A DNA stretch of 64,000 nucleotides, taken from NCBI RefSeq assembly GCF_000063445.1, contig NC_009464.1, positions 2,666,001 through 2,730,000 of the forward strand. The letters are read 5' to 3'. Source of the stretch: Methanocella arvoryzae MRE50 (lineage in GTDB: Archaea > Halobacteriota > Methanocellia > Methanocellales > Methanocellaceae). Below the pieces are notes generated by a model that did no database searches, had not been told where the DNA came from, and saw only the letters and a program-made list of their open reading frames with translations. The translations under genes and the position numbers were made by a program. Below are positions 27,277 through 43,774 of the stretch, one piece after another. The number at the start of each line of letters is the position of its first letter. The first letter of the stretch is position 1.

Positions 27277-27500
27277 GTTACCACAGAGGCACAGAGGTTC
27301 ACAGAGATACACAGAGAACGATTTAAAAACGATTATGTGTGGCATTACTATAATAAAATCGCTCTCTACGTCTCTGTGTTTCTCTGTGCCTCTGTGGTGA
27401 ACCGTTCTCTGTGTTTCTCTGTGCCTCTGTGGTGAACCGTTCTCTGTGGGTCTCTGTGCCTTTGTGGTGAGCCGTTTACCTCTGTGCCTCTGTGGTGTGT
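27277..27500. repeat. CACAGAG-type inverted/tandem repeat (class C)
   Basis: The 365-base gap after the PIN-ATPase gene holds no real gene. The left arm (27280-27322) is ACCACAGAGGCACAGAGG-like. The right side has three 35-bp tandem copies (27371-27405, 27406-27440, 27441-27475) of its reverse complement plus a partial fourth. The two sides can pair into a long stem. Apparent reading frames across it are shadows of the repeat. Confidence 0.9.
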
Positions 27501-27626
27501 CTTGTAGCTTTTTTGCAATACTTTGCATATTACTTTCAGACCACTATCACACAACGCTTTAATCCCCAAAAGCTTATTTCAGGATTGGCCACCATCTGTC
27601 AAACCGTGGCCGGGAATGAAGATACT

Positions 27627-28433
27627 ATGAACTTCAAGTTCGAAGACATCACCGAGAAAAACGTGGATGACCTGATGTGCATTTGCGGCAACATGCCGGG
27701 CCTGGATAAGAACCCGCACTTCAAGGAGGGTCGGGAGGCGAGGAGGCAGTGGCTGCTGGAGATGATCGGGAAATACGGCACCGTGGGTGTGATCGCCTAC
27801 GACGGGAGCGGCAAGCCCGCGGGCTTTGTGGAGTGTATTCCTGCCGCCGCTCACCCGCTGGGGCTGTTCGCGGCCGACCTGCCCCGGACGATGATCATCG
27901 ACTGCGGGTGGTACAAGCAGGACGCCGGCATCGCGGTCCGCAAGGCGATTCTGGATGACATGTTCGCCCGGAAGTGGTTCGACAAGCCGCTGGGAAACAA
28001 GAAGTGCAAGTTCGTGGACGTGCTGACACTGAAAGGAGCGCCCATCATGCAGTACGACTTCTACCAGGGCTACGGGTTCAAAGACGCTGTCGAGATCACC
28101 GGCCACGCCACGAAGCGGTATCTCTTGAGGTACCCGGTCAGGGGTGACGAGATCACCCCTAAGGCGGAAGAGATCAACTTCTGCGACGCCGGCAAGAACG
28201 TGCTCGTCATCGGCATCTACCGCCAGTGCCACATGCCCTTCATGATCGCCGCGAAGATCCAGAATGCCGTAGAAGGCCTCGAAGGCCTGAGCGTCAAGAT
28301 CGTCGACTACTGGGCCACCGGATCGCCTACGGTCTGCGAAGCCTCCATCAACGGCAGGCCAGCATTCGACGGGCCCGTGTTCTTCATGAATGACGAGCAG
28401 ATCCGGGAGTCTGTAAAGAGCAAGATGATCTGA
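27627..28433 (+). CDS. GNAT-fold acetyltransferase with C-terminal YoaP-like domain
   Basis: The 268-aa protein has an N-terminal GNAT-type half (residues 1-150; VGVIAYDGSGKPAGFVECIP and the D-x-x-K-x-A region) and a C-terminal half with a thioredoxin-like pattern (NVLVIGIYRQCHMPFMIAAK ... VKIVDYW). This resembles the YoaP-type layout. The substrate is unknown. ATG 27627 is chosen; the longer frame from 27492 reads into the repeat and lacks an RBS. Confidence 0.6.
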   Translation: MNFKFEDITEKNVDDLMCICGNMPGLDKNPHFKEGREARRQWLLEMIGKYGTVGVIAYDGSGKPAGFVECIPAAAHPLGLFAADLPRTMIIDCGWYKQDAGIAVRKAILDDMFARKWFDKPLGNKKCKFVDVLTLKGAPIMQYDFYQGYGFKDAVEITGHATKRYLLRYPVRGDEITPKAEEINFCDAGKNVLVIGIYRQCHMPFMIAAKIQNAVEGLEGLSVKIVDYWATGSPTVCEASINGRPAFDGPVFFMNDEQIRESVKSKMI

Positions 28434-29132: not shown

Positions 29133-29207
29133 GGGCGGGTCGCCTAGCCAGGACATAGCGCCGGCCTCCTAAGCCGGATACCGTGGGTTCGAATCCCACC
29201 TCGCCCG
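29133..29207 (+). tRNA. tRNA-Arg (anticodon CCT)
   Basis: A 75-nt tRNA without encoded CCA. The acceptor stem GGGCGGG pairs with CTCGCCC (one G-U), the anticodon stem CCGGC/GCCGG encloses the loop CTCCTAA (anticodon CCT, reading AGG), and the T arm is GTGGG TTCGAAT CCCAC. The discriminator base is G at 29207. The last four bases are the first part of a 14-bp target duplication, and an integrated casposon starts 10 bases later, so the tRNA is intact. Confidence 0.95.
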
Positions 29208-29217
29208 CTGGCTTTTA
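29204..29217 (+). repeat. Left 14-bp target-site duplication of the casposon
   Basis: CCCGCTGGCTTTTA is exactly repeated at 43761-43774. Its first four bases are the last four of the tRNA, so insertion restored an intact tRNA 3' end. Confidence 0.95.
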
Positions 29218-29351
29218 GGGGATAATGATATCCCCCCATTTTTTGCCGTTTTTTCTGGACGCTCCAAACTTATTATCGCCTAACAGAGGCTTGGTCTACG
29301 AATATTAATATGACAATAATTTTATAAAATATGATTTTGGACTTAATTTCA
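29218..29351 (+). repeat. Left terminal inverted repeat of the casposon
   Basis: Bases 29218-29256 are a perfect reverse complement of 43722-43760. Beyond this, similarity continues imperfectly to about 29351; both sides share the blocks CTTGGTCT, TATTAATAT, TTATAAAA and GACTTAATTTCA in the same order. The outermost 18 bases are a near-hairpin (GGGGATA, four-base loop, TATCCCC) followed by CCATTTTTT, which could terminate transcription of the upstream tRNA. Confidence 0.93.
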
Positions 29352-29610
29352 AACGAGGCCCTAATAATTTGGTCGGGGGAAATGCAACATTACCTCATAC
29401 AAAAGTCGCTTAGAAAGACGGATCTATGATAATAACAATTCCATGATTATACCTGATTATGGTCATCGTTTATACTGATCTATATCAATTTTGGAGTCTG
29501 GCATATAGCTTGGCTTAATAAGAGATATATTTGTAACGGGTATAAGGAAATACTATTTCAGTATTCATGACAAATAATGAAAAGCTTAACTATGATTGAA
29601 TTATTTTAGT
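29352..29610. other. AT-rich left shoulder of the casposon, no gene seen
   Basis: Between the left repeat and the IS4 insertion I see no coding frame, tRNA or clear repeat. Base use is as AT-rich as the neighbouring cargo. Confidence 0.5.
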
Positions 29611-29619
29611 TTACTATTT

Positions 29620-30678
29620 GAGACTTTTGCATAAGTCATCCGATGATTGTGGTCCGGGGGTTTGCTCCTTGTTTGACCTGGTAGAGTACTTGGATTTGTC
29701 GTGCTATCAGTGTGAGTCCGGTCTTTACAGTAACTCGAAGGATTCTGGTAGTTTTTACTCGTTTTAGGGTGAGGTGTTCTTTTAAAAGGTAGTTGGTGTA
29801 CTCGCAATGCATCCGGTTTTTATATAATTTGTTTAGGGTTATGTCATGGAAGGGGATGATCTCCTGTATCCGGTACCTGGGAAGCTCTTTCTTAGTGTTT
29901 CTACGGTTAGTCCTGTTAATCATAGGTATGCCCAACGGGTAAAGACGTTCGATATGCTCTCTGGAATCGTAGGCAATATCAGCAAACAGCCCGTTCATCA
30001 ATAAGCTGTGCGAGCCCATTTTCTCTAGTAGCGGCAAGACCTGTGTGGTGTCATGAATATTTGCTGGAGTCACTACACTGCAGATGGGCGCTAATGTGGG
30101 AAGATCGTACAGCAGGTGTATTTTGTACCCGTAATACATTTCGTCGGCGATATGATCGTAGCCCCATGCAGCGTCCGGATCTGTCTTGTTAAACGCCGGA
30201 AGGCTTGTGCTGTCCACTCCGACCATGCACATGAAATCCGGGTCTTTGTCCCGTATCATGCTCCTCAGAATCCGCATGATCCTGTCAATCTCTATGCTTT
30301 CTTTGAACCTGCTGAACGTGCTTTCGCTCGGCAACTGATTAAAGCCAAGAAACTCTAATTTATATAAATCACCGGCCAGTATTCTTACCAATTTACTAAC
30401 GCTCGGAATACCGGCCAACTCCATGTAGACGAGGGCTTTGAGTAAAGCGATTTTACTGTAAATCGATGGCCTGCCACGCTTATTATTCTTCTCAACGAAG
30501 CTGAAACGCTGCCAGTCAATCGCTTCTATCATCTCAAGGTACGTGTCAGAAAGTATTTTGCATTGGCAGTCGAAGCAAGAACCGGGCATCTTCCAGCCCG
30601 TACAATCGTTTTTACTGAGCATAAAACCGATACGGCTAAGATGCCCATATACTTTTTACCGATTTATGCAAAAGTCTC
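29620..30678. mobile_element. IS4-family insertion sequence nested in the casposon
   Basis: A 1059-bp element is bounded by 15-bp inverted repeats (GAGACTTTTGCATAA at 29620-29634; the mirror at 30664-30678) and flanked by a 9-bp direct duplication TTACTATTT (29611-29619 and 30679-30687). It holds one transposase gene. The clean ends and intact frame indicate a recent insertion after the casposon was assembled. Confidence 0.92.
29636..30622 (-). CDS. IS4-family DDE transposase
   Basis: A complete 328-aa transposase. The N-terminal region carries an HTH-like SESTFSRFKESIEI. The DDE acidic residues appear in MVGVDSTSLPAF (first D) and LFADIAYDSREH (second D), and the glutamate is in the IS4 signature Y-(2)-R-(3)-E-(6)-K, here YKNRMHCEYTNYLLK. 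It excises and inserts the 1.06-kb element around it. No frameshift is present, so it could be active. Confidence 0.9.
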   Translation of the reverse strand: MLSKNDCTGWKMPGSCFDCQCKILSDTYLEMIEAIDWQRFSFVEKNNKRGRPSIYSKIALLKALVYMELAGIPSVSKLVRILAGDLYKLEFLGFNQLPSESTFSRFKESIEIDRIMRILRSMIRDKDPDFMCMVGVDSTSLPAFNKTDPDAAWGYDHIADEMYYGYKIHLLYDLPTLAPICSVVTPANIHDTTQVLPLLEKMGSHSLLMNGLFADIAYDSREHIERLYPLGIPMINRTNRRNTKKELPRYRIQEIIPFHDITLNKLYKNRMHCEYTNYLLKEHLTLKRVKTTRILRVTVKTGLTLIARQIQVLYQVKQGANPRTTIIG

Positions 30679-30725
30679 TTACTATTTGATAGAAATATCC
30701 TATCTAGATCTTGCAGAGGGATGTT

Positions 30726-32618
30726 ATGGCGAATGATAGTCTTTCTAATAATCTTATTGAAAAAATTCGTAATAGAGAAATTATTTTATGGGTAGGTTCG
30801 GGTCTTTCGTTTGTCGCTGGATATCCATCAGCAAAGAGATTAGGGGCGATTATTAAAGAACACGTTACGCCTGAACAACTCAAACATTTTGATGATAAAG
30901 AATTAGATGGTATTGCAGAGGAATATGTCCAAATATATTCACGAGAAAAATTGATAAATATCTTATCCGATGTTTTCCAAAAAGAGCCTAATATTATTGA
31001 TTACCATAAAATGATAAGTGAAATCCCCCAAATAGAAGTCATAGTAACAACAAATTATGATAAATTGTTTGAGATGGCTTATGCTAATAATATATTAAAG
31101 ATAGTTACTGATTCAGATATTGCTAAATCTGCAAATGATAACATAGCTCACTTATATAAAATACATGGGTGTATAGATTCACCTGATAATATAATAATAA
31201 CAAAAAGTGATTATACAGGATTTTTTACTAACGGACAATATAACTTATTATGGAGCGCTTTAAAAGTATTAGCATCTAAGTATTCTATCCTTTTTATAGG
31301 ATATTCTTTTGAAGACCAAAATGTGAAATACGTTTTTGAAGATGTTCTAAAACAATTGGGCGATAATCATAAGGATTATTTCCTAATTTCTCCTGATTTC
31401 CCGGAGCATAAACAACAAGTTTTGAAACAATATTCAATAGAATATATCCAGATGAAAGCTGAAGATGCAATACCAAAAATATACAAAGAGATCAATGAAC
31501 ATTTAATTGATGATGGGATAAAAGGGCGAATACCGTTATTGAAATGGCAAAAAGCACTTGAGGATAGAAAAATTGAAGTGGTATCAAGTTTAGAAGGCGG
31601 AAAGGTATCAATAAAAAAGATAGGAACTAAAGACAATTCCGTGAAAGCTGGCGGTACAATTCATTTTAAAACAACTAATGATAATCGCCAAAAAATAAAT
31701 GAATTATTTGATGTAATAAATGGTAAAAAAATTGGTCAGGTCAAATTATCGAAAGAATTTGATGATTTGGACTTAAAAACATTTTTCGGTGAAAGTATTT
31801 TTATAGGTGGAGAAGAATTCAAGATCGAAGAATTGGAAATCAAATCTCCTGTGCAGGACATTAGAACAAATTTTATACTTAAAAAGTCTAAGTTGTCTTT
31901 TGAAAATGTACCGGGAGAAAAATTAAATACGGGAACAGTAGCTCAAATTAAATTACACCCACCAGGTTTCGATTTTATATTAGATTTTAAAGTAACTGAA
32001 AATGTGATGGTTGATTGTCCTATTAACTTTACGTTTCATATAGATAATGTATTACAAGGATATCAAGCACTTAATTTTTTCAACGAATGGATAAAAGGCG
32101 ATGAGTTATTAATATATATTAATTTAATAGAAAAACCTTTAATTATACCATTTTCGAATATTAATATAGAAAAGACGTGGTTAGATTCTATAAACTTTAT
32201 GTTTTTTGTATATAATATATTATATGAAATCCAAAATGAATTTAATATTATATTAAATGTCCCTAAAGAATTTTCAGATGAGGAACTTGATGATATTCGA
32301 GTCGTAAATAGTTTAATAAAACAAAAAAGAGCTAAACTAAAATCTTTCAAAATAAATATTAATTCAAAAGAGTTACAAAAAATGAATATGAATGAAATAA
32401 TGCCTAAGTTACTTTTAACTTATGATAGTATTACTTTTGGTTTGTTCGATAAAAAATTTGAATATAAAAATTGTTCGGTATATTTTGAGGATGCGTATAT
32501 CAATAATAAAGATGAAGTATTGAAACAAATGGTTGAAGGAATAGATGAACCAATAGTTGAACTTTTTAGTAATTGTGATAAAATAGTCTTGATAATCGAA
32601 CAAATAACTTTATTATAA
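30726..32618 (+). CDS. SIR2-domain protein (putative defence NADase) of the casposon
   Basis: The 630-aa protein has an N-terminal SIR2-like domain (residues ~1-260): WVGSGLSFVAGYPS (NAD-binding GxGxS), VIVTTNYDKLFE, catalytic-type HG in LYKIHGCIDS, and FIGYSFEDQNVKYVF. The remaining ~370 residues are an unrecognised beta-rich domain that could sense phage or bind a partner. Such SIR2 proteins are typical of anti-phage abortive systems that destroy NAD. The gene is far more AT-rich than the casposon core, suggesting separate origin. ATG 30726 follows AGAGGG. The next gene is a HEPN-like protein on the same strand. Confidence 0.8.
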   Translation: MANDSLSNNLIEKIRNREIILWVGSGLSFVAGYPSAKRLGAIIKEHVTPEQLKHFDDKELDGIAEEYVQIYSREKLINILSDVFQKEPNIIDYHKMISEIPQIEVIVTTNYDKLFEMAYANNILKIVTDSDIAKSANDNIAHLYKIHGCIDSPDNIIITKSDYTGFFTNGQYNLLWSALKVLASKYSILFIGYSFEDQNVKYVFEDVLKQLGDNHKDYFLISPDFPEHKQQVLKQYSIEYIQMKAEDAIPKIYKEINEHLIDDGIKGRIPLLKWQKALEDRKIEVVSSLEGGKVSIKKIGTKDNSVKAGGTIHFKTTNDNRQKINELFDVINGKKIGQVKLSKEFDDLDLKTFFGESIFIGGEEFKIEELEIKSPVQDIRTNFILKKSKLSFENVPGEKLNTGTVAQIKLHPPGFDFILDFKVTENVMVDCPINFTFHIDNVLQGYQALNFFNEWIKGDELLIYINLIEKPLIIPFSNINIEKTWLDSINFMFFVYNILYEIQNEFNIILNVPKEFSDEELDDIRVVNSLIKQKRAKLKSFKININSKELQKMNMNEIMPKLLLTYDSITFGLFDKKFEYKNCSVYFEDAYINNKDEVLKQMVEGIDEPIVELFSNCDKIVLIIEQITLL

Positions 32619-32773
32619 AATCAATTGTTCCATTAATTTTATTTATATATATTTAAAATAATATATATTGCTATACTAACGATTGTATTATATACATAAA
32701 TATGATTATTAGAAATATTTGATGCATATCCTGCTAAATCTAAACATTCTATGAACAAAACTTATAAGTTGTA

Positions 32774-33595
32774 GTGAAAAAATTAATTAACGATTATATG
32801 TCTCTCACCTATAGAAAAATAGATGCTGATTTTTTAGCTAAATTGCCTGCTAACATAAAAAGTGATATTGAAAGTTATAACAATAGGATGTTAGGCAAGC
32901 CGTTTCCTTCGGGTGAAAAAGTAATTGTTACATATTGTACATATTGCCCATATTGTAAAAAAGCAACTATGGGCGGTTTCCCTGATGAGCGTGAACCTAC
33001 ATTTTGTATGTTTTGTGGTGAAACCGATACATATATCAAAGTTACAAGGAGTCTTTCAAAAGCTAAGGATCTATTAATCCTATCAAATAATACCATAATA
33101 GATGTTAATCTTAAAAGAATATTGCATGAACAGATTATTATAATTATTGCCACAAGTATGGAGATATTTCTTAGGGACATATATGCAACTTTATTAAACA
33201 TAAGATACATAAAAAGCAATCTATCATTATATGAGCGATTTTATAGGGACAGTAAAAACGATTTTGCGACATTTGGAAAAGCTAAAAAAGAGCTACAGAA
33301 CGAATTAAATATTAATTTTAATACCTTTTTAAGCGATGATGAAATTGATAATTTAAATATTCTATCCCTAAAAAGAAATGTAATTGTACATAATGCTGGG
33401 ATAATAGATAACCCGTATATAAGTCAATCTGGGCAAAAAGATTTAGCGATAGGGAGGCAATTACCAATAATTGAATCTGAAATAAATCTATATATTGATG
33501 CGATAGAAAAATTATCGAATGGACTATTTGATATACTAAAAAAAGAGCATGAAGATGAACTCATAAAAAAATTTGAAATAATTCTTGTAAAATAA
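32774..33595 (+). CDS. Zinc-ribbon protein with HEPN-like RNase motif
   Basis: A 273-aa protein that starts with GTG. Residues 55-81 carry cysteine pairs (CTYCPYC and CMFCGE), a probable zinc ribbon. The helical C-terminal half contains R201-N-V-I-V-H206 (in LKRNVIVHNAG), the Rx4H motif of HEPN ribonuclease/toxin domains, placed in a helix-loop as in that family. It lies 155 bases after the SIR2 gene on the same strand and shares its low GC content, so they may be co-transcribed. HEPN assignment rests on the motif and helical context; no partner antitoxin is evident. Confidence 0.6.
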   Translation: MKKLINDYMSLTYRKIDADFLAKLPANIKSDIESYNNRMLGKPFPSGEKVIVTYCTYCPYCKKATMGGFPDEREPTFCMFCGETDTYIKVTRSLSKAKDLLILSNNTIIDVNLKRILHEQIIIIIATSMEIFLRDIYATLLNIRYIKSNLSLYERFYRDSKNDFATFGKAKKELQNELNINFNTFLSDDEIDNLNILSLKRNVIVHNAGIIDNPYISQSGQKDLAIGRQLPIIESEINLYIDAIEKLSNGLFDILKKEHEDELIKKFEIILVK

Positions 33596-33941
33596 GACCT
33601 CAGTCATTATAAACATTTTATATATCTCATCTGTAAAAATTCCCTAATGTGAAGATAAATGAAGTCATAAGGTAGAGCATAAGTAATCATAAGAAAGGTA
33701 TAAGAAACCTGACACAAACCTGTGTTATTCTCATAGAAAATAAAATTTCGCCTTGCTGCACTATTGTTGTTGTACTAGAATAATTGCTGAAAAACAGAAT
33801 ATTATATATTTTTCTATAACAAGTGATAAGACTTCTTAACAAAATATGAAGTCGATGCTAAGCGAAAATGACAAACTCTACAAGAAAAAAGTACAATTGT
33901 CCTGTTTTCTATAAGAGAAAACAAGAGTTGTAGTACATTTG
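33596..33941. other. Gene-free region between HEPN gene and cas1 with TIR-like block
   Basis: No gene is seen. Bases ~33853-33891 (CGATGCTAAGCGA, 15 bases, CAAGAAAAAA) resemble the inner part of the right casposon repeat (CGATGTTAAGCGA, 17 bases, CAAGAAAAAA, 43690-43729) in the same orientation. A hairpin (TGTTTTCT/AGAAAACA, 33903-33922) and an inverted pair AAGACTTCTTAAC/GTTAAGTCTT also occur, the latter just past the cas1 stop, a possible terminator. Confidence 0.45.
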
Positions 33942-35162
33942 TTAAGTCTTAGTACTATTTAGCTTACCCTTGCTCTTTTCATATATTTTGATTCGCTTGC
34001 CTTCCCGAAGGTTTTTCTGCATATACCAGAGCGTTGTTTTACTGATTCCAAGTTTTTTCCTTTCAGCTGGCGTCATTTTTAATAGTGCATCTCTAACATC
34101 CGATGGATCGTCTCTATTAACCATTATGTCCGGTGTTGTAAACTCTACCGTCTTATTTTTGTCTTGTATGAAGTTAGCGAACTGTTGAACCTGGTCAATG
34201 AGGATATTCTCATAGGTGTAGTTTTGATTCTTGTATGGTGCCTTAAGGTTGAAGTTCAGCTTTATACGCTCAATTAATTTCTTAGCGGTTGCTTCTCTTA
34301 GTCTGAGGTGGTAATTTTCTGTTACAATAAAGTCGTTCTTCTTGAGTTTCTTTTCCTCTAGTAGCTGTATTACGGATAGGTCGATGAGCCAGCGGTATAA
34401 TTCTTGGAGGTCGTAGACGAGTGGTGCACCGCTGCCTTTCATTTCATGCAGGTACCCCATTGCTGGATCGAGGCCCATAGCATTGATGGGGCGTCGTATT
34501 TGTGCTTCTAGAATAGCGTAGCCGTAGTTTAGGAGTGCGTTGATTTCGTCGCTGGCGTTCATGTTCCAGCTGTTGCTCTTGTTTCTTCTTCCGGTGAACC
34601 TGAAGTCCGGGTATAGTTTGTTGAAGACTTTTGTTAGCCTGTCCCAATACGCCTTTGCTGTCTTGGCTTCGTACACCATGATTTTGTTGATATCATGTTG
34701 TTCTTTCTTGTTATAAGCTACAAATCCCGTGTACTCGTTGATGAAGGCTTCTTCTATCTCACTCTTATCCAGCTCTTCGTAATAGTCCGATAATTCCGTT
34801 AGTAGGTTGCAGGATTTCTTGACCTTTTCTTTAATAATCTGATAAGCGATATTGTACCTTGTTGTGGGGTCGAGGTATTTGGCGTATTGTTTTACTCGTA
34901 GTTTGCCTACGCTAGTTTCTTTAGGCATCCAGGTGCCGAGCAGATTACCATTCCAATCAAGTAGTGTTAAGTTGATTTTGTGCTTCATTATCCAGCGCAT
35001 AGCCTCAAAGCTAATGTTGCCAGTAAAACCATCGATTACAATAGTATCGTGATCTATCTGATGAGGATAGAATTCATAATCATTGGTTTCAGTACTAATT
35101 TTTAATCTTCGTTTTTCTACCGATATTCTGGTTCCAAAGCCTTGAATTAGTAATGGGTTCAT
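33942..35162 (-). CDS. cas1: Casposase Cas1 with C-terminal helix-turn-helix
   Basis: The casposon integrase, 409 aa counted from the GTG at 35171 or 406 aa from the preferred ATG 35162. The Cas1 fold is clear: an N-terminal beta domain (residues 5-85; IVIDGFTGNISFEAMRWIMK), then the helical domain with active-site residues Glu168 (VYEAKTAKAYW), His242 (GYLHE) and Asp254 (VYDLQELYR). Residues ~360-395 form an extra HTH (TPAERKKLGISKTTLWYM) absent from CRISPR Cas1. By homology it joins element ends to a target, as in spacer insertion. The start overlaps the stop of the winged-helix gene by about 70 bases. No cas2 or repeat array is nearby. Confidence 0.95.
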   Translation of the reverse strand: MNPLLIQGFGTRISVEKRRLKISTETNDYEFYPHQIDHDTIVIDGFTGNISFEAMRWIMKHKINLTLLDWNGNLLGTWMPKETSVGKLRVKQYAKYLDPTTRYNIAYQIIKEKVKKSCNLLTELSDYYEELDKSEIEEAFINEYTGFVAYNKKEQHDINKIMVYEAKTAKAYWDRLTKVFNKLYPDFRFTGRRNKSNSWNMNASDEINALLNYGYAILEAQIRRPINAMGLDPAMGYLHEMKGSGAPLVYDLQELYRWLIDLSVIQLLEEKKLKKNDFIVTENYHLRLREATAKKLIERIKLNFNLKAPYKNQNYTYENILIDQVQQFANFIQDKNKTVEFTTPDIMVNRDDPSDVRDALLKMTPAERKKLGISKTTLWYMQKNLREGKRIKIYEKSKGKLNSTKT

Positions 35163-36096
35163 TTTTATCACTCGTTTTTAAGAACTTAGATAAGAAGTGG
35201 TTACTATCGTCTCTTTTCACTATTTTATTTGTTAATAAATCAGTTATAAAGAGGGATTTTAAAATCAATATTGTTAAAGATTCATTATCTTCTTTTGTAA
35301 GGGAATTAAAATTATATTCGATTATTTCATTGAAAAATTCGATAGAGAACCCTCGTTCATCGAATAATTGTTCCATAATTTTTTGAAGTAATAATGGGTC
35401 AGCGTATTTTGGTTTTAAGCTATATCTTAATGCACTTGGAGATAATAAGAGAATATCAATTATATCTTCAAATTCATCCTTTGAAATTACAAAAGATGAC
35501 CTCAATAAAAGACTATTATTTGAGCGATTATCTAGTTGATGATCTCCTAATCTATTTTGGAGTTTATCTTCAATATCCTCAATAAATGAATTTTCGATAG
35601 TCTCAACTAATCGCCTATGTTGATTTTTTATTCTATCGTCTTTATCTTCTTTTTCAATTTTATCAATAATAGAGCAATGTCGTTGATTTATTGATTCTTG
35701 AAGCAAATTGATAAGCCATTTTCCTTTGAAGTCTTCCGATGTAACGTAATGATGGTAGTATTGTGTTTTCATGAATTCTTGTTCTAATTGATTATCTTGG
35801 AAGAATTCGTGTAGATTTTTAAAATTGTCAAATCCATTTAGATAATAAGTATCGGGTTTTCCTTTACCTTGACTTCTTTTTAATAAGAGTTTATCTTCAA
35901 TAAGCTCCGCTAAATGGGTTCTTAAGACTTTGAGATTTCGGATATTAAGAGAATCTTTTAGATGATCTCGGATCGCCTGAAATGAGGTCTCACCATTATT
36001 TGCCACTAGTAAGAGGATTGTGGTTTTTGTTTTTCCTGGTGGTTCCCGGTTGTTTGGCTTCCGACGCTTCATCCAATAATGTATCGTATTTTTCAT
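35095..36096 (-). CDS. Casposon winged-helix protein
   Basis: This 333-aa protein begins with a winged HTH (residues ~20-95; KTKTTILLLVANNGETSF, then LRTHLAELIEDKLLLKR and a GKPDTYYL wing), followed by about 240 charged residues with likely coiled coil (residues 130-180). The wHTH part is not one of the core casposon families I can name. It is the first gene of the leftward operon and overlaps cas1 by about 70 bases, so it is probably a regulator or DNA-binding partner of Cas1. Confidence 0.7.
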   Translation of the reverse strand: MKNTIHYWMKRRKPNNREPPGKTKTTILLLVANNGETSFQAIRDHLKDSLNIRNLKVLRTHLAELIEDKLLLKRSQGKGKPDTYYLNGFDNFKNLHEFFQDNQLEQEFMKTQYYHHYVTSEDFKGKWLINLLQESINQRHCSIIDKIEKEDKDDRIKNQHRRLVETIENSFIEDIEDKLQNRLGDHQLDNRSNNSLLLRSSFVISKDEFEDIIDILLLSPSALRYSLKPKYADPLLLQKIMEQLFDERGFSIEFFNEIIEYNFNSLTKEDNESLTILILKSLFITDLLTNKIVKRDDSNHFLSKFLKTSDKNEPITNSRLWNQNIGRKTKIKN

Positions 36097-36322
36097 ATAA
36101 AAACCTGCCTACACAGTACACTATAATTCGGCTAAGGTGTATACCCCACACAAAAATATTTATAGGACTACCCACTATACTCGCGGTTGCTAGCCAAGCG
36201 GTAACTACGCAGCACACTAAAAAACAAGAACATAGACCGCTTGTAAAAACATTAACGAAAAACAGACAGCAAAGTGGGAAAAGGTGGGTCTGGCAACCAG
36301 GTGGGACACAGGAGACAACAAT
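36097..36322. promoter_or_regulatory. Divergent promoter region of the casposon core
   Basis: A 226-base gap separates the leftward wHTH-cas1 unit from the rightward HTH-HNH-polB unit. AATATTTATAGG (36156-36167) is a TATA candidate for the rightward operon; TTTTTATATG read on the minus strand (around 36100) is one for the leftward genes. Short GTGTATACCCCACAC-like and AGTGGGTAGT sequences nearby could bind the HTH proteins. Confidence 0.45.
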
Positions 36323-36850
36323 ATGCCAAAGAATTCCAAGGTCCCCCTTCACAGGACCACCACACAAGGATTAACCGTAGAAAACAAGGTGATGAGAGCC
36401 AAGACCACCGAAGTGGTCGGAATCGCTCGCAGAACAGGAAAGCCCATCCAGGACTTGGCCAGACAGTACGGCCTAACCATGGATGAGATAAAGCGGCATA
36501 CAGGCGCTGTGAAAAAGCTGGGAGATACCTGGGCTGTCACTGCGTATGACCATGTGCCCCGAGAAATGCTCATCTTCGAGAACGGGCGGGAAGTCCAGAT
36601 TGAAGTTGCTGACTCTCGGGAAGCTACAAAAATCAGTCAGTACCACAACGCCATACGAGGATACCTCGCAGCGAAAGGCCCTGCCAAAGAAAAAGCCCTA
36701 CGCCAACTGAAAAACTATGGGAGTATCCGCATAAAAGATGCCACAGGTCGACTACACAGTTTAGAGACTGACCCGGATGTCATCCGCGAGATTGTGTTGA
36801 GAAAGGAGGTGCCAGAGTATCCAGAACCCTACCCTGAAGGCTGGAGGTGA
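36323..36850 (+). CDS. Casposon helix-turn-helix protein
   Basis: A 175-residue protein with a central HTH-like segment (GKPIQDLARQYGLTMDEIKRH), followed by an alpha/beta part. First gene of the rightward operon, it overlaps or abuts the HNH gene. Its conserved placement beside HNH and PolB matches HTH genes described in casposons, where they may regulate transcription or help replication. ATG 36323 follows a GGAG ribosome site; the in-frame start at 36284 lacks one. Confidence 0.7.
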   Translation: MPKNSKVPLHRTTTQGLTVENKVMRAKTTEVVGIARRTGKPIQDLARQYGLTMDEIKRHTGAVKKLGDTWAVTAYDHVPREMLIFENGREVQIEVADSREATKISQYHNAIRGYLAAKGPAKEKALRQLKNYGSIRIKDATGRLHSLETDPDVIREIVLRKEVPEYPEPYPEGWR

Positions 36851-36855
36851 TAACG

Positions 36856-37347
36856 ATGGTTACAAACCTAACTGTCATCGTAGCCCGGAGGGTAGTGGAA
36901 TGGAGAGACGACGTACAAAACCAGCTGGGGCATATTCCACAATACGTTGAGGAAGCTGATTGCTGGGTGATGGAGCTAACAATACGCAATGAATCCTCTC
37001 GAAAAAGGAATCGCTGCGAAGCATGCATCAAAAATGGTCCCATGGATGGCCACCATTTAGCTGGAAAGGCATTCGAAGACGTATGCCCCCAGAAAGCATG
37101 GATCTGCAGACAGTGCCATGAGAGCTTCACACCTGAACAAGCAGTAAAGGACAAGCTCCTCAGTATAGCATGCGAAAATCACAGAAGGAAAAAGCCGCGC
37201 TTAGAAACAGGGTATGCCTCATTCCTGCTAGGATTACAGAACCTGATCATGCTCAAAGCCAAAGCATGCGACCAGCCCCTCTTAGAGGGGTTATCGAAAA
37301 AGTTCACACCAGACATAATCGAACTACTCGGGATATACAATGGATGA
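36856..37347 (+). CDS. HNH endonuclease of the casposon
   Basis: A 163-aa nuclease with an HNH motif framed by zinc cysteines: CEACIKNGPMDGHHLAG (first CxxC and His pair) and KAWICRQCHESF (second CxxC and final His). HNH enzymes nick or cut DNA with a metal ion; in casposons this is a regular core gene whose role is untested. ATG 36856 lies 9 bases after GGAGG (36842-36846), whereas GTG 36847 does not. It overlaps polB by eight bases. Confidence 0.88.
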   Translation: MVTNLTVIVARRVVEWRDDVQNQLGHIPQYVEEADCWVMELTIRNESSRKRNRCEACIKNGPMDGHHLAGKAFEDVCPQKAWICRQCHESFTPEQAVKDKLLSIACENHRRKKPRLETGYASFLLGLQNLIMLKAKACDQPLLEGLSKKFTPDIIELLGIYNG

Positions 37348-40162
37348 TATCTACGTTAGGTACCACATGGGCCGTGGAGAACAGGCCGAATACCACAACG
37401 CTGGCCAGCCAACAATTAACAATAGCAGAATAGACCTGGTATTCGATACTGAGACTACCACGGATCGGTACCAGAACCTAACGTTCGGCTCATGCGGTGT
37501 CTGGGTGAACGGCAAGCCTGACAGGTTCCTAATTTTTTTCGACCATGAACTACCAAAACCCAGCACAGACATCATAAAAGCCTACAACATCCAGTACAAC
37601 ACCGAAAAAATACTAAACGACAAACTCCCCGGAACAACATTTAACTCCTACGAGCTGATGACAAAGGAGGAATTCGTGGAAAACGTACTCTTCCCCTACG
37701 TATTTCAGGCTCGCGCTAACTGCATCTGCTTTAACATACCCTTCGATATCACCAGACTCGCCATAAAGTTCTCAGAGTCGAGAAAATACAATAACGGCTT
37801 CTCAGTAACACTATCCGAGAATCCTAATAACCCTCGCATAGTCATAAAACACATCGATTCTAAGAGAGCCTTTGTAGAACTTACAAATCCAGATCGCAGT
37901 AAGGGTAAAAAGAAGAAAAAGCGGAGACCTTTCCGGGGCAACTTCCTCGACCTCCGAACATTCACATTCGTCCTAACCAACGAAGGATATGACCTGGGAA
38001 GAGCGTTACCGGACTTCGGTAGCAAATTCAGGAAAATGAGCCCGGAGGAACACGGGAAAATCACACCTGAGTATATCACCTATAACATAAATGATACCCT
38101 GGCAACTTACGACTTATACGTTCAGGCTTTGAAGAGGTACCGTTGGTACTGTCTTGATAAAACACCCACCAAACTGTACTCACCGGCCAGCATCGGGAAA
38201 GCCCTTCTCGACAAAATCGGCATACTTCCATTCCACTTTAAAAACCCGGAGTTCCCTGAAGAAATTTTGGGCTATGTCATGATGGGCTACTACGGAGGCC
38301 GTACAGAGACACGCATACGCAAAGAACCCAGACTAATAACATGCCTCGACTACATCAGCATGTACCCCTCTGTATTCGTCCTCCTGAACATGTACAGATT
38401 CCTAATCGCCAAAAACATCCTGCGAGAAGATGCCACAAAAGACGCTCAGACGTTACTTGACAAGATAACCCCAGAGGATATCCGTAACAAGGAGCTATGG
38501 AACGATTTCACAATCATTTGTGAGCTTGAGCCTAACGAGGATAAAGTCCCTGTAAGGTCCTCATATGGCAATAAGTACGCACTTAACATTGGCATTAATT
38601 ATCTTATCTCGACAGATGGTTCAACGATTTGGTACACCCTTATCGACCTTATCGCTGCAAAAATGGACCAGGGGAAAGCACCCAGGATAAAAAGAGCTAT
38701 CAGATTCATCCCGAGTGAGCCACAGGATAACTTAAACTCAATAACCTACCTGAAAGGCTTACCACCCTTAGAACCCGGCGCTGACCTGATAAAATACCTG
38801 ATCATCGAGCGAGACCATATCAAAAAGCTCATGAAAAGCCCTGAATGGGAAGGCAAAAAGGACACAGAGGAATACCGAGAACTGGAGATATCAGAGCAAA
38901 TCCTCAAAATCATAGCCAATTCCACCTCCTATGGCATATTCATCCAGCTAAACCCCGAAGACGCCGATAGCGAAGAAGTAACTATCTTTTGCGATCAAAC
39001 CTTCACAGCCGAGGTAAACAAGATAGAGAAGCCAGGCCCAGCATTTAACCCTATTATGGCAGTGTTCCTCACAGCAGGCTCACGCCTTATTCTTGCAACA
39101 GCCGAGGCCTTAATCACCCGTGAAAACGGGTATTTCGCCTACTGTGACACTGATAGTATATTCATATCACCCGAACACGTACCCATGATCCAGGAATTCT
39201 TCCGAGACCTCAACCCCTACGGAGTACACATAGAGGACATGTTCAAAATTGAAGATAACAAGAGTCGGAAGAAAAAAGTCAAAAGAGTAGTCAAACTTGA
39301 AAACGTCTGGCTATACGCCATATCCGCAAAAAGATACGTCCTATACCATGTACACGATAATGGGGCAATCGAGATACTCAAGTACTCATCACACGGACTC
39401 GGTCATCTTATGAACATCGATGAGGCCCAGATCTGGATGGACATCTTAACTTTACACTACCACCCAGAAGAGGCCGATGAGATATTCCAGCGGTACAAGG
39501 GCAAATACGCTTTCTCAAAACTGGCCATCACGACATATGACATATGGGCTCGGGTAAACAAGCGTAATCAAGGCAAGCCACTCAAAGAACAGATTAAGCC
39601 ATTCAATTTCATCCTTGTAGGAACCTCATACCGCACAGACCCAGAGACAAAACAGCCAATAATCCCCACCTGGCCTTACAACAGCGCTGACGACAAAGAA
39701 TTCGCAAAACTACCATACATGCCATTCATCGATTACAAGACCGGCAAAACCTACACAAACCCACCAGCAGCTGGTCAGGAATTCAGCACCGAATTCTACC
39801 TAAAACCAATGGATGAAGTACTCTACGACTATGTCAATCACCCGGAGGCAAAATCCGAAGGCGATACAGGACTACTAAAGTCAAGGTACCTTCACATAAA
39901 TAAAGCATCCATACACCGCATAGGAAAAGAATCCGATGACATAGAAAACTCTCTAATATTTGGTCTACCCTCGGATTCGTATGGGGAAGTAGCAAATATC
40001 TACCAGGCAATAAGCAACCTTACGCCAAAAGATGCTGGAAAACTGGGCATACCAGAAAGAACCCTTAGGAAGTGGAAAGCAAAAATACGGGAAGGTAAGC
40101 CACTTAACATGAAAAACAGTGTAATTATAAAATTAAAAAGGCCTATTGAATCAATAGAATAG
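37340..40162 (+). CDS. polB: Family B DNA polymerase of the casposon, with C-terminal HTH
   Basis: A 940-residue replicative-type polymerase. The proofreading exonuclease motifs are VFDTETTT (Asp36, Glu38), FNIPFDIT and YNINDTLATYD. The polymerase motifs are DYISMYPSV (motif A, ~337), NSTSYGIF (motif B, ~527) and YCDTDSIFI (motif C, ~602). All catalytic acids are present. The last ~40 residues, TPKDAGKLGIPERTLRKW then REGK, resemble the HTH tail of the casposon Cas1. It would replicate the element. It overlaps the HNH stop by eight bases. GC content is intermediate between host and SIR2 cargo. Confidence 0.95.
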   Translation: MDDIYVRYHMGRGEQAEYHNAGQPTINNSRIDLVFDTETTTDRYQNLTFGSCGVWVNGKPDRFLIFFDHELPKPSTDIIKAYNIQYNTEKILNDKLPGTTFNSYELMTKEEFVENVLFPYVFQARANCICFNIPFDITRLAIKFSESRKYNNGFSVTLSENPNNPRIVIKHIDSKRAFVELTNPDRSKGKKKKKRRPFRGNFLDLRTFTFVLTNEGYDLGRALPDFGSKFRKMSPEEHGKITPEYITYNINDTLATYDLYVQALKRYRWYCLDKTPTKLYSPASIGKALLDKIGILPFHFKNPEFPEEILGYVMMGYYGGRTETRIRKEPRLITCLDYISMYPSVFVLLNMYRFLIAKNILREDATKDAQTLLDKITPEDIRNKELWNDFTIICELEPNEDKVPVRSSYGNKYALNIGINYLISTDGSTIWYTLIDLIAAKMDQGKAPRIKRAIRFIPSEPQDNLNSITYLKGLPPLEPGADLIKYLIIERDHIKKLMKSPEWEGKKDTEEYRELEISEQILKIIANSTSYGIFIQLNPEDADSEEVTIFCDQTFTAEVNKIEKPGPAFNPIMAVFLTAGSRLILATAEALITRENGYFAYCDTDSIFISPEHVPMIQEFFRDLNPYGVHIEDMFKIEDNKSRKKKVKRVVKLENVWLYAISAKRYVLYHVHDNGAIEILKYSSHGLGHLMNIDEAQIWMDILTLHYHPEEADEIFQRYKGKYAFSKLAITTYDIWARVNKRNQGKPLKEQIKPFNFILVGTSYRTDPETKQPIIPTWPYNSADDKEFAKLPYMPFIDYKTGKTYTNPPAAGQEFSTEFYLKPMDEVLYDYVNHPEAKSEGDTGLLKSRYLHINKASIHRIGKESDDIENSLIFGLPSDSYGEVANIYQAISNLTPKDAGKLGIPERTLRKWKAKIREGKPLNMKNSVIIKLKRPIESIE

Positions 40163-40346
40163 CCCCTACATACTTCTTTAGATAATCGCTGTTGCTATAT
40201 GCAATAGACATATGTTACAATAAAATGAAAGTATGTTGCATGCGCTTGAGTTCAACATAAAGCTACAATTATCGCCATTGTGTGCTCGAGTCGATAGTCG
40301 TTGATTGTATCCTAAAAGCGAAGAAAGCTGAGGCTATCAAGAACGG

Positions 40347-40631
40347 TTATTTAAGGAGTTTTTTATAAGCGTGGCAGCGGTAATCGTATTCTCGTAGAAT
40401 CTCGAATTCGAGCACTTGCGTTCGTATTATCATCGATCGTATCTGTTGGCCCACTTCTGATATACTTATGAGTTTTGCGGGACCACTTGCTACTATCTCG
40501 CATTGTTCGTGGAAAACCGTGTAATCCTCGACTACGTCGTTACGGATAGTAAAAACATGACAGAGTCGATGTTCGTAGATACGTACTGCAAATCCTTTGT
40601 TCAATTGGAAGATTTCAGCATCAAGGTGCAC
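40347..40631 (-). CDS. Hypothetical small protein on the minus strand
   Basis: A 94-aa frame with a GTG start and no family recognised. It reads as a mixed alpha/beta protein with a basic C terminus (YDYRCHAYKKLLK). Evidence is only the frame length, convergence with polB and plausible composition; it may be a random frame in AT-rich DNA. Confidence 0.4.
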   Translation of the reverse strand: MHLDAEIFQLNKGFAVRIYEHRLCHVFTIRNDVVEDYTVFHEQCEIVASGPAKLISISEVGQQIRSMIIRTQVLEFEILREYDYRCHAYKKLLK

Positions 40632-40735
40632 GCTTACTCATCGGCAATAACACGATAAAAACATCAGGTTATAGTATTCCGAAAATAAAAAACATAGATA
40701 GTAACAGGATTGGTTAGCAAGCAACAAACATTATT

Positions 40736-41389
40736 ATGCAAAAAACACCTCTTAACATAGAAATGCTCAATATTAAGCAACTGGTAATCGGCCTAATATA
40801 TCTTATTACAATAACATCGATATTATTCGGTTACGTTAGTGGCTTTCATATTTTTTTCGTTATACCAGCCGTGGTCTGTTTTCCGTTATGGTTTAACAGG
40901 TATGTCCATTCATTTGATAGCGACAAAGAACAGATAAAAATTTTCACTACTTGGCTTGGAGCGGCAACACTAATTATTGTTGAGTATTGGATGATTGTTT
41001 TATTTTTCGAGCAACTTTTTAAAACAATTATGGATCAGAACTCCTATGCTGATACGGGGATCATTATTTTATTTATATTAATTATAGCAGAATTAACCGT
41101 TCTTACTGGAAAAACATCTCAAAAAATTATCAGACTATTTACATATTACGATCATTACCGCCTGGGTGGTATACGCGATCTCTTGTCAAAAGAATTGTTG
41201 GTACACGGAGCATTTTGTATATACAGCATACCTATCATCCTATCGGCGGGAATCGCTGGACTAATAAATAACCCGAGTAACGCCAATAGTAAAACTGGGT
41301 TTTTATTAGTGTTTGCTATTGTTTATCTCATCGGTCAATTATTCGATAAGTTCGTCTGTAAACACGTTTTTAAAATAGACTTTGATTAA
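40736..41389 (+). CDS. Multispanning membrane protein (casposon cargo)
   Basis: The 217-residue protein has about five hydrophobic segments (LVIGLIYLITITSILFGY, FFVIPAVVCFPLWF, ATLIIVEYWMIVLFF, GIIILFILIIAELTVL and a C-terminal pair). No family is recognised. It is transcribed rightward alone and has low GC content like other cargo. Its role in the casposon is unknown; membrane effectors are common in defence and toxin modules, but nothing in the sequence shows this. Confidence 0.55.
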   Translation: MQKTPLNIEMLNIKQLVIGLIYLITITSILFGYVSGFHIFFVIPAVVCFPLWFNRYVHSFDSDKEQIKIFTTWLGAATLIIVEYWMIVLFFEQLFKTIMDQNSYADTGIIILFILIIAELTVLTGKTSQKIIRLFTYYDHYRLGGIRDLLSKELLVHGAFCIYSIPIILSAGIAGLINNPSNANSKTGFLLVFAIVYLIGQLFDKFVCKHVFKIDFD

Positions 41390-41515
41390 AAGGATACTAC
41401 TGTAGCAATTTCTTACATATTAACTTAAAAAGGTTCAATGAACCGCTTGGTATACTTATCCCATCACGAATACTTCTCAACAGTCTGGTAAGCATCTTGG
41501 TAACTATAAATATTA

Positions 41516-42430
41516 TTAATAATATATGTGTATACTGTTGATTATCCATGGCTCTTGTATGATGTAGAAATTGCCTGTATTTAATAGCAATTCCACATGG
41601 TACTGCGAACCAAAATTCGGGGTATATGCGATTTTATCATAATTGTGTGTATACACTGTGTCCCCAGTGCAATCAATATAAATGGACCCTCTATCAGTCG
41701 TATTAAAAACATTTAGGGCATGTCCAGACCCATCGGAAAATTCCAACGTAACCACGCCAGCTTTTATGCCCATACTTTCTGCATTATCATGTACCCTGAC
41801 CGCATAATCTATTCAAACAAAACTTTCCTCTCTATATGGTATTTGATCTGAATTGTCGGTTAAAACAAAATTGATTAATTCTTGATACGAAGGATTGGTC
41901 GCATTTGGGTTATTATGAATATACATATAAGCCCCAGTCGAATTGGTTTCGTAATAATGTGTATTTCCTACCTGATACGAAAGTTCAACTGTATTTGGAT
42001 CGTATATAAATTCGTAATAACCTAAACCAAGAATAGCAACCACTATCACTACGAGTATTGCAGAATACAAATTGCTATTCAAGATTGTTCTTATTGACCG
42101 AGACAGGTTAAAATTAAACCTCCGCCGGTAACGCTTTGGCTTATAAGGTTTCTTGGAAATTTTCTTTTCGAATGAGATTTGATTATTGGTGTTATTATAA
42201 TTTGAAATCGACGGGATATTTTGGGTATGTGGCGCTTCTTCCATGGTGGGTAATCTTTCAATTATTGGTGGCTCCTCAATAACCGAAAATTCCCTGATAA
42301 CAGAACTGCAATCGTGTTTTTCAGGCAGCCTATGCTCACCGCAGTATTTCCCCCCACACCTCTTGCATGTAAAGAGCAGAGGTTCGGTTTCACCACAAAT
42401 ATCGCAGCAATACACACCATTTTTAATCAT
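41516..42430 (-). pseudogene. AN1 zinc-finger/transglutaminase-like protein interrupted by TGA at the catalytic Cys
   Basis: Two frames read as one protein of ~304 residues broken by one in-frame TGA (41813-41815). Residues 8-41 form an AN1 zinc finger (CCDICGETEPLLFTCKRCGG and CGEHRLPEKHDC), with one membrane helix at ~125-145, then a transglutaminase-like domain. The segment after the stop is IDYAVRVHDNAESMGIKAG, followed by GHALNVF (catalytic His) and YIDCTGD (Asp). The stop sits where the catalytic cysteine is expected (C-x-D-Y/F-A). No frameshift occurs: the distance is a multiple of three. It is either a nonsense allele of a recently active gene, or a recoded UGA codon; the former is likelier. 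Confidence 0.7.
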
Positions 42431-42526
42431 AGGATAGCTTAATTATCACTTGTTGATCATTATAAAATGTTTCGTATGCAACCGATAAATTAAAAAGTAT
42501 ATTCATTTAATATAGTCTCGGTCGGT

Positions 42527-43414
42527 ATGTTATTGGAGATGGTTAATTCTTCAGTGGGATCATCCAATTTTGATCTGGCACTATTCATCATAGATAAAGT
42601 AAGTGATTTTATTGTTCAATTTTGTGGCGTCATTATTGGTGCTGCTATCTCATTTATTGCCTTAATGTGGAATGTGAAACGCGATGATAAAGCAAAAAAA
42701 GATGCGGACAAAGAATCATTGAAATTACATTTAAAAAGGGTTCAAAGCGAATTATATTATAATATAATAAAAATGGGATTTCTAAAAGTTGCGTGTGGTT
42801 TTACAAAGACTTATGGGGCATCGATGGAATTATTATCAGAAATATCCATTTTTTATGATAAGGAATTTAGAAGTGACGCTTATGATGATTTGATGCGCTC
42901 GGGATTGTTAATTAAGCCGGGTTTATTAAAAAATAATGAAGAAGTATTAATTAAATTATTAACTCTATATAATAAGGTTGATGATATGTTTCATAAATAC
43001 AAAGCTAACTCCCTAGAAAAATTCTACCCAGATTCAAGAGTGGATGAGTATAGCTTTGATGACGTAGATCATATTATCCAAAAATTTGCAATAGAATCCT
43101 CAGAAATGGCTGATGAAATGCTCAATGCTTTAATTTTAGTTAGCAAAGCAATAATTGAACTCTCTCCGAACGAAAAAAACAATCCAGATCAAAAACAATT
43201 TTGGAATATGGGCTTATTTGAAAATACTACTAAGCAGGATACTCCGAAAGAGAAAGTAGAATCAGAAACACCATCAATTGTATCAAAAACCAGTACTCTC
43301 ACCCCATCACCTATTCCACCACTAAGGTGGTATGATGATCGTTTTTTTAAAATCTGTTTCGGTGTGGCGACCCTGCTAATCATTATTCTTGGGGTGGCTG
43401 CAGTTGTAAGATAA
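42527..43414 (+). CDS. Membrane protein with long cytoplasmic helical region (casposon cargo)
   Basis: The 295-aa protein has a first hydrophobic segment (FIVQFCGVIIGAAISFIALM, ~29-48), a long, mostly helical charged region (residues 50-215), a PTPS-type linker, and a second membrane helix at the C terminus (FKICFGVATLLIIILGVAAV). No family is recognised. It is the last cargo gene before the right repeat, 212 bases away. Two-helix proteins with a large soluble loop are often membrane effectors or sensors, but this is only a possibility. Confidence 0.55.
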   Translation: MLLEMVNSSVGSSNFDLALFIIDKVSDFIVQFCGVIIGAAISFIALMWNVKRDDKAKKDADKESLKLHLKRVQSELYYNIIKMGFLKVACGFTKTYGASMELLSEISIFYDKEFRSDAYDDLMRSGLLIKPGLLKNNEEVLIKLLTLYNKVDDMFHKYKANSLEKFYPDSRVDEYSFDDVDHIIQKFAIESSEMADEMLNALILVSKAIIELSPNEKNNPDQKQFWNMGLFENTTKQDTPKEKVESETPSIVSKTSTLTPSPIPPLRWYDDRFFKICFGVATLLIIILGVAAVVR

Positions 43415-43626
43415 TCAAATTGATCTGAAAAGATCAGTTGCTTACTTGTAGTCACTGGCAGGACGTCTTTGTTTAGGATTAACATAACCAGTTTTTTATA
43501 TTTCAATGTTACAGTTGCTAACACGCAAATGCAATAATACGCTCTTTAACCACTAGCGTTTGTCTATATCACCCATATACTTATACTCAAAGGGCTTGCT
43601 TTAACAAGGGAATTAAACATATTCGA

Positions 43627-43760
43627 TGAAATTAAGTCTAAAAACACTTTTTATAAAAAGACTGCTATATTAATAATTAAAGACCAAGCCGATGTTAAGC
43701 GATAATATGTTTGGTATGGCAAGAAAAAACGGCAAAAAATGGGGGGATATCATTATCCCC
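43627..43760 (-). repeat. Right terminal inverted repeat of the casposon
   Basis: Bases 43722-43760 are the exact reverse complement of the left terminus (29218-29256). The imperfect extension reaches ~43627, giving 134 bp, equal to the left side. The DNA from 43415 to 43626 has no gene. Confidence 0.93.
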
Positions 43761-43774
43761 CCCGCTGGCTTTTA
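43761..43774 (+). repeat. Right 14-bp target-site duplication of the casposon
   Basis: CCCGCTGGCTTTTA, identical to 29204-29217. It is followed by ATTTTTAAG, probably the original T-rich terminator of tRNA-Arg before insertion. Confidence 0.95.

Follow-up and report, generated by a model that had tools for sequence, protein, structure and literature searches.

What kind of mobile element follows the 3' end of a tRNA-Arg gene in the archaeon Methanocella arvoryzae MRE50, which enzyme placed it there, and is it already known? These questions are raised by positions 29204-43774 of a stretch of 64,000 nucleotides (hereafter the window), which corresponds to genome positions 2666001-2730000 of the 3,179,916-bp single contig NC_009464.1; coordinates are those of the window if not stated otherwise. 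An initial annotation, made from the letters alone, had described this region as an intact casposon and had suspected that it might be known. Here, we show that the region is almost certainly MetArv-C1, a family 2 casposon of M. arvoryzae MRE50. The Cas1 homologue of this DNA transposon of 14.5 kb presumably joins the ends of the element into the 3' end of the tRNA gene. The find is correct and not new, and neither the ends nor the main genes of the element appear to lack anything.

The borders are formed by the following features, including the target site duplication (TSD) and the terminal inverted repeats (TIRs):

29133..29208, + strand: tRNA-Arg (CCT), the target gene (ARAGORN; Rfam end 29207)
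29204..29217, + strand: left 14-bp TSD CCCGCTGGCTTTTA, identical to the right copy
29218..29256, + strand: left TIR, 39 bp, perfect, starting with GGGGATAATGATATCCCC, exactly complementary to the right TIR
29218..29351, + strand: left arm of a longer imperfect inverted repeat (112/134)
43627..43760, - strand: right arm of the same imperfect repeat (112/134)
43722..43760, - strand: right TIR, 39 bp, perfect, exactly complementary to the left TIR
43761..43774, + strand: right 14-bp TSD CCCGCTGGCTTTTA, identical to the left copy

Both pairs of repeats are exact as the initial annotation had claimed, and with the tRNA end given by ARAGORN (29208) the duplication begins within the last four bases of the tRNA-Arg gene. 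TIRs bordered by a TSD are a defining property of casposons, and members of family 2 usually insert at the 3' end of a tRNA gene and duplicate 14 bp, as is the case here. Inwards from the 39-bp TIRs the inverted repeat extends to 134 nt, of which 112 match, and in the whole genome this end sequence is confined to the two termini; the same repeats at other loci without cas1, named beforehand as a refuting case, were thus not seen. On neither strand of the window does CCCGCTGGCTTTTA occur again. Repeats this long that mark both termini to the base and fall on a tRNA 3' end are far beyond what chance would give.

The aligned left end of MetArv-C1 is given by Hickman & Dyda 2014 (PMC4150552) as NC_009464:2695204..2695258. 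Since position 29204 of the window corresponds to 2695204 in the genome, the coordinates of the published and the observed left end (29204-29258) coincide exactly; the 55 bases consist of the 14-bp TSD and 41 further nucleotides. The name MetArv-C1 comes from Krupovic 2014 (PMC4046053), which describes inside it an ISNCY insertion sequence (IS) that has ends and a duplication of its own, and the IS inside the region (see below) agrees with it. As both coordinates and IS match, this casposon is already known and in print, and the earlier suspicion was justified; the initial annotation had recovered, with base precision and from the letters alone, an element that was already published. A full-text literature search for MetArv-C1 returned only these two papers. 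Supplementary tables aside, the present analysis adds to the published element a SIR2 cargo of the ThsA/NADase kind, a cargo gene broken by TGA, a null result for the spacers of one host array, and the unoccupied loci of relatives.

The following genes are assigned to the core of the element, with a C-terminal helix-turn-helix (HTH) domain in Cas1 and in the polymerase:

33942..35171, - strand: cas1 (casposase) with C-terminal HTH, 409 amino acids (Pfam, 6opm match, alignment)
35095..36096, - strand: putative HTH protein in the family's HTH slot beside cas1 (position only)
36284..36850, + strand: second conserved core protein, HTH-type by family description (matches in relatives' loci)
36847..37347, + strand: putative HNH-like nuclease (motif by eye, position, weak match in locus L089)
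37340..40162, + strand: family B DNA polymerase (PolB) with a C-terminal HTH like that of Cas1 (motifs, PHROG, relatives' loci)

The assignment of Cas1 is firmly established by the Pfam score (204 bits) and by the best solved relative, 6opm (E 2.9e-70), which we take to be the casposase of Methanosarcina mazei; the alignment extends up to residue 394 and reaches the tail of 6opm. Residues E168, H242 and E257, presumably the catalytic residues of Cas1, are invariant among 12 aligned Cas1 proteins, with 35-39% identity between the protein described here and its 11 relatives. A self-encoded family B DNA polymerase, a further property of casposons, is recognized by the sequences DTET, DYISMYPS, NSTSYG and YCDTDS, which we take as family B polymerase motifs, by a PHROG polymerase match (E 2.2e-15), and by tblastn matches at E <= 1e-3 in 34 of 37 loci fetched around the Cas1 genes of relatives, some of which overlap or share one genome. 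The C-terminal tails of Cas1 and PolB have 13 of 40 residues in common, and a HTH shared by both C-termini was published for family 2 casposons (PMC4046053). Regarding the family 2 set of a HNH nuclease and two HTH proteins, one conserved protein (36284-36850) is matched at E <= 1e-3 in 26/37 of these loci without having a family match in Pfam, PADLOC, NCBIfam or PHROGs.

The cas1 gene of the element is the only one within it and lies outside the CRISPR-cas locus of the host, as is expected for a casposon. Absence of Cas2 and CRISPR, stated in the initial annotation, holds inside the element and fails genome-wide, where Cas2, a second Cas1 and an array with 114 repeats (1749618-1756550) are found at genome positions 1749618-1757767, 0.94 Mb from the casposon. 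Searches with the two Cas2 families gave one genome match to PF09707 (1756601), none of it in the element, and no match to PF09827. The host Cas2 belongs to the CT1978 family, presumably of type I-E. In agreement with this, M. arvoryzae MRE50 is listed with a type I-E CRISPR-Cas system in PMC12195208, which speaks for the identification. None of the 113 spacers from this one array (40 kb fetched, which was the range of the search) has a convincing match to the element; among the top six listed the best are exact over 13 nt or have one mismatch in 16 nt.

In three other genomes of the family (G029, G009 and G019) the tRNA-Arg gene is present and no casposon-type Cas1 is matched at 1e-20. G029 (73%) and G009 (66%) share with the window the gene that lies left of the tRNA (27471-28430), genes further left are kept in G019, and the sequence that directly follows the tRNA gene in all three differs from that of the window. 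The second refuting case named beforehand, related strains with the region but without the 14-bp duplication, was likewise not seen in these three genomes, to which the comparison was confined. The proposed search for empty sites was thereby successful for the left side only, since none of the three matches the right flank at the DNA level and the protein matches there (33-41%) probably belong to a multi-copy family. This is one of several points that weigh against our identification. The others concern the core genes: PolB scores 19.9 bits in Pfam versus a curated cut-off of 23 and has no sequence match in the PDB, which leaves the polymerase claimed at the outset supported by its motifs, the PHROG match and the relatives' loci. 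The HTH protein at 35095-36096 has no match in Pfam, PADLOC, NCBIfam or PHROGs, and tblastn finds it in 0/37 of the relatives' loci and in none of 17 further loci. For the HNH nuclease of the initial annotation, motif and position fit, but no profile of the same four collections supports it and its tblastn count is likewise 0/37, with a single weak match (L089, E 1.5e-4) among the 17 further loci.

How is the target recognized? The T-loop DNA of the tRNA-Arg gene, GTTCGAATC, is located at -17..-9 from the insertion point, with TCGAATC at -15..-9, CC at +1,+2 and TCCCC at both TIR 3' ends. For the casposase of Aciduliprofundum boonei the results reported in PMC6614799 include a requirement for TCAAATC 9-15 bp upstream together with CC at the start of insertion, and efficient integration of the pentamer TCCCC with which the TIR ends at its 3' side; according to a review (PMC9939771), this motif relates to the T-psi-C loop in tRNA-Pro. 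For comparison, the 37 relatives' loci and the window yielded 22 elements (21 relatives and the window) with end candidates scoring at least 60, and four elements came from the 17 further loci, where L092 was removed as a duplicate of L072. From these 25 elements, 23 were retained that have GGG...CCC ends and a 14-bp repeat with at most one mismatch (L058 and L073 were dropped). GTTC occupies -17..-14 in 20 of the 23 end-resolved casposons, MetArv-C1 included. In the same number TTC[AG] is found at -16..-13 on exactly one side, never on both, at a background of 1.06% per position. Two of the three exceptions (L056 and L066) have left flanks that end like the TIR of another casposon, and in L070 the other flank leaves the fetched stretch; this explanation was made post hoc, after the count. 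Because TTC[AG] determined which side was taken, its four columns do not count as independent evidence. Independent columns are G at -17 (20/20), A at -11 (20/20), T at -10 (19/20) and C at +1 (20/20).

ARAGORN places a tRNA gene at the border in half of these 20 casposons, i.e. nine times tRNA-Leu and once the tRNA-Arg of the window. In the other ten (L052, L055, L067, L075, L076, L080, L086, L090, L095, L099) neither ARAGORN nor Rfam at its gathering score recognizes a border tRNA, the end of a tRNA-Gly being ~70 nt off in L090. The sites are not all independent: L076 resembles a piece of a tRNA-Leu gene, and one and the same site is apparently used in L067 and L095. Six of these ten may be decayed tRNA ends with 4 or 5 T-stem pairs kept, and the four others (L055, L080, L086, L090) have T-loop-like DNA with 1 or 2 of 5 T-stem pairs left. 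An address that is kept with so little pairing in the T-stem suggests recognition of DNA sequence. We therefore lean, with some reserve, towards the view that family 2 casposases read the DNA address GTTCRAAT at -17..-10 together with the border C and not the tRNA gene as such; tRNA genes would then be hit since they carry the T-loop sequence, and GTTCGAAT would be a candidate address sequence. In this view, MetArv-C1 shows that the start of the duplicated segment may vary (CGCA in most others, CCCG here) with address and distance being constant. This is a small addition that extends the published finding on A. boonei. A full-text search for casposon and TTCGAA gave nothing related by title, the 2016 study on M. 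mazei being outside this search, and novelty is not claimed.

Two side observations were made in these loci. Direct repeats longer than 14 bp (L052, L056, L060-L066 and others) seem to run into the TIR of an apparent neighbouring casposon, which would correspond to tandem arrays. The start of a Cas1 gene with 60% identity to Cas1 of MetArv-C1 (residues 4-99), the highest in the scan of genome contigs, is found at L116:9974-10294 in a metagenome-assembled genome of Micrarchaeota, where it is cut by the contig end and where the host is assigned by binning only.

Besides the core genes the element carries an IS and cargo:

29620..30678, no strand assigned: insertion sequence, 1059 bp, a passenger (own ends and direct repeat)
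29636..30622, - strand: DDE transposase of the IS (Pfam DDE_Tnp_1, E 3.3e-19)
30711..32618, + strand: cargo with N-terminal SIR2-like domain of the ThsA/NADase kind (Pfam SIR2_2, PADLOC ThsA)
32774..33595, + strand: cargo, 273 amino acids, Cys-rich N-terminal part and RNxxxH-type (HEPN-like) motif (by eye)
41516..42430, - strand: cargo, zinc-finger and transglutaminase-like gene (by eye) with one in-frame TGA (relative in L095)

The IS has 18-nt inverted ends (94%) and the 9-bp direct repeat TTACTATTT on both sides; elsewhere in the genome there are two full-length copies at 97% and seven near-full-length ones at 77-79%. Its transposase stays below the cut-offs of all IS families in NCBIfam. 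The SIR2 cargo matches Pfam SIR2_2 (E 9.8e-36), PADLOC ThsA (E 2e-33) and solved ThsA and KomC chains, and by sequence it resembles ThsA and other NADase-type defence proteins, while its last ~370 residues have no match in any family searched. The neighbouring 273-residue protein has no match in Pfam, PADLOC, NCBIfam or PHROGs and is matched in 8 of 392 genomes of a phylum sample, its own genome counted; a HEPN-type RNase would be a possible guess at its function. A two-gene system of SIR2 and HEPN-like protein found no support, as no SIR2 gene was recognized, by eye or annotation, beside three relatives of the 273-residue protein (within 1.5-kb flanks for L155 and L156 and within 5 kb for H16). 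Structure predictions made without alignments for both cargo proteins had mean predicted local distance difference test values (pLDDT) of 33.9 and 34.3 and were not used. The in-frame TGA of the gene at 41516-42430, whose upstream part has no family match in NCBIfam or PHROGs, falls where the relative in L095 has Cys. Selenocysteine was considered as an alternative: no tRNA-Sec above the gathering score was found in the genome (best 38.1 versus 47; the control exceeded this score in 5 of 14 genomes), and a nonsense change is therefore the likelier explanation and probably the correct one.

Islands that are inserted by site-specific tyrosine recombinases also use tRNA 3' ends and leave a direct repeat which restores the tRNA, so the position of the element would equally suit a genomic island with Cas1 as mere cargo. 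Yet a Pfam scan of ten proteins of the element, which left aside the short open reading frames 40347-40631, 41516-41773 and 41813-42430, gave no integrase, long TIRs lie directly within the direct repeats, the same geometry recurs in 20 of 23 resolved casposons, ten of them without recognized tRNA gene, and the element has been published as casposon; an island of this type is exceedingly improbable. Equally little credit is due to a mobilization of the whole region by the DDE transposase. Its gene is indeed located inside the left end, but it belongs to an IS of 1059 bp that has ends and a 9-bp repeat of its own and of which two further full-length copies at 97% reside elsewhere in the genome.

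A different matter is whether MetArv-C1, accepted as casposon, can still move. It might be a fossil, i.e. a casposon by descent that was inserted once by Cas1 and is no longer mobile. The broken cargo gene at 41516-42430, the IS within the element, the diverged inner part of the long inverted repeat (112/134) and the single copy in the genome speak for such a history, whereas the outer 39 bp of the TIRs are identical, the direct repeats are free of mismatches, and Cas1 and PolB are open with their motifs kept. We regard this fossil state as possible, if rather doubtful. The designation as intact holds with a restriction: the genes of Cas1 and PolB are open, but the element contains the IS and a cargo gene with a nonsense interruption; as a casposon with the proposed borders and target the element is confirmed.

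What is directly observed for MetArv-C1 are its ends with the duplication, its genes, the conserved residues of Cas1, the geometry of the target and, in three relatives, tRNA loci that are unoccupied. A mechanism can be proposed for it because of the experiments on the enzymes from A. boonei and M. mazei. By analogy with these, we infer that integration is catalysed by the element's own Cas1. A Cas1 tetramer would read the upstream T-loop DNA, the 3'-OH of one TIR end (...TCCCC-3') would attack the border four bases inside the tRNA gene and the other end would attack 14 bp away on the opposite strand. Gap filling would then give the 14-bp repeats, the left copy of which would restore the tRNA. 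PolB, with its Cas1-like C-terminal HTH, would probably copy the element. According to PMC6977970, the casposase of M. mazei engages its target as a tetramer, with an offset of 14 bp, and shows no integration without its HTH. The authors of the work on A. boonei, in their comparison with a HTH-less enzyme, regard the HTH as not essential for catalysis (PMC6614799). Mobility in vivo, also into tLEU2 that is only partly like tRNA-Leu, is described for casposons of M. mazei in PMC10359463.

CRISPR adaptation has been proposed to derive from casposons. A complete casposon whose casposase is divergent and whose tRNA target differs is therefore of use for comparisons. Across casposons, including those without a recognized tRNA gene, the T-loop address keeps a constant distance, which parallels the leader-repeat geometry of CRISPR integration. 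The address in casposons without a recognized tRNA gene is the one lead worth continuing, and it gives a simple prediction for the bench.

Compared with MetArv-C1 as published, supplementary tables being outside the comparison, no difference was found. AciBoo-C1 from A. boonei shares the T-loop motif at -15..-9, CC at +1,+2 and the TCCCC 3' end, but its target is tRNA-Pro with TCAAATC, whereas MetArv-C1 uses tRNA-Arg with TCGAATC. The MetMaz casposons of M. mazei have in common with it the C-terminal HTH of Cas1 and a 14-bp duplication that holds the last 4 bp of a tRNA gene; they differ in the target, which is tRNA-Leu with CGCA in contrast to tRNA-Arg with CCCG, and in the start of the TIR, being GGGATATAGG in MetMaz and GGGGATAATG in MetArv-C1.

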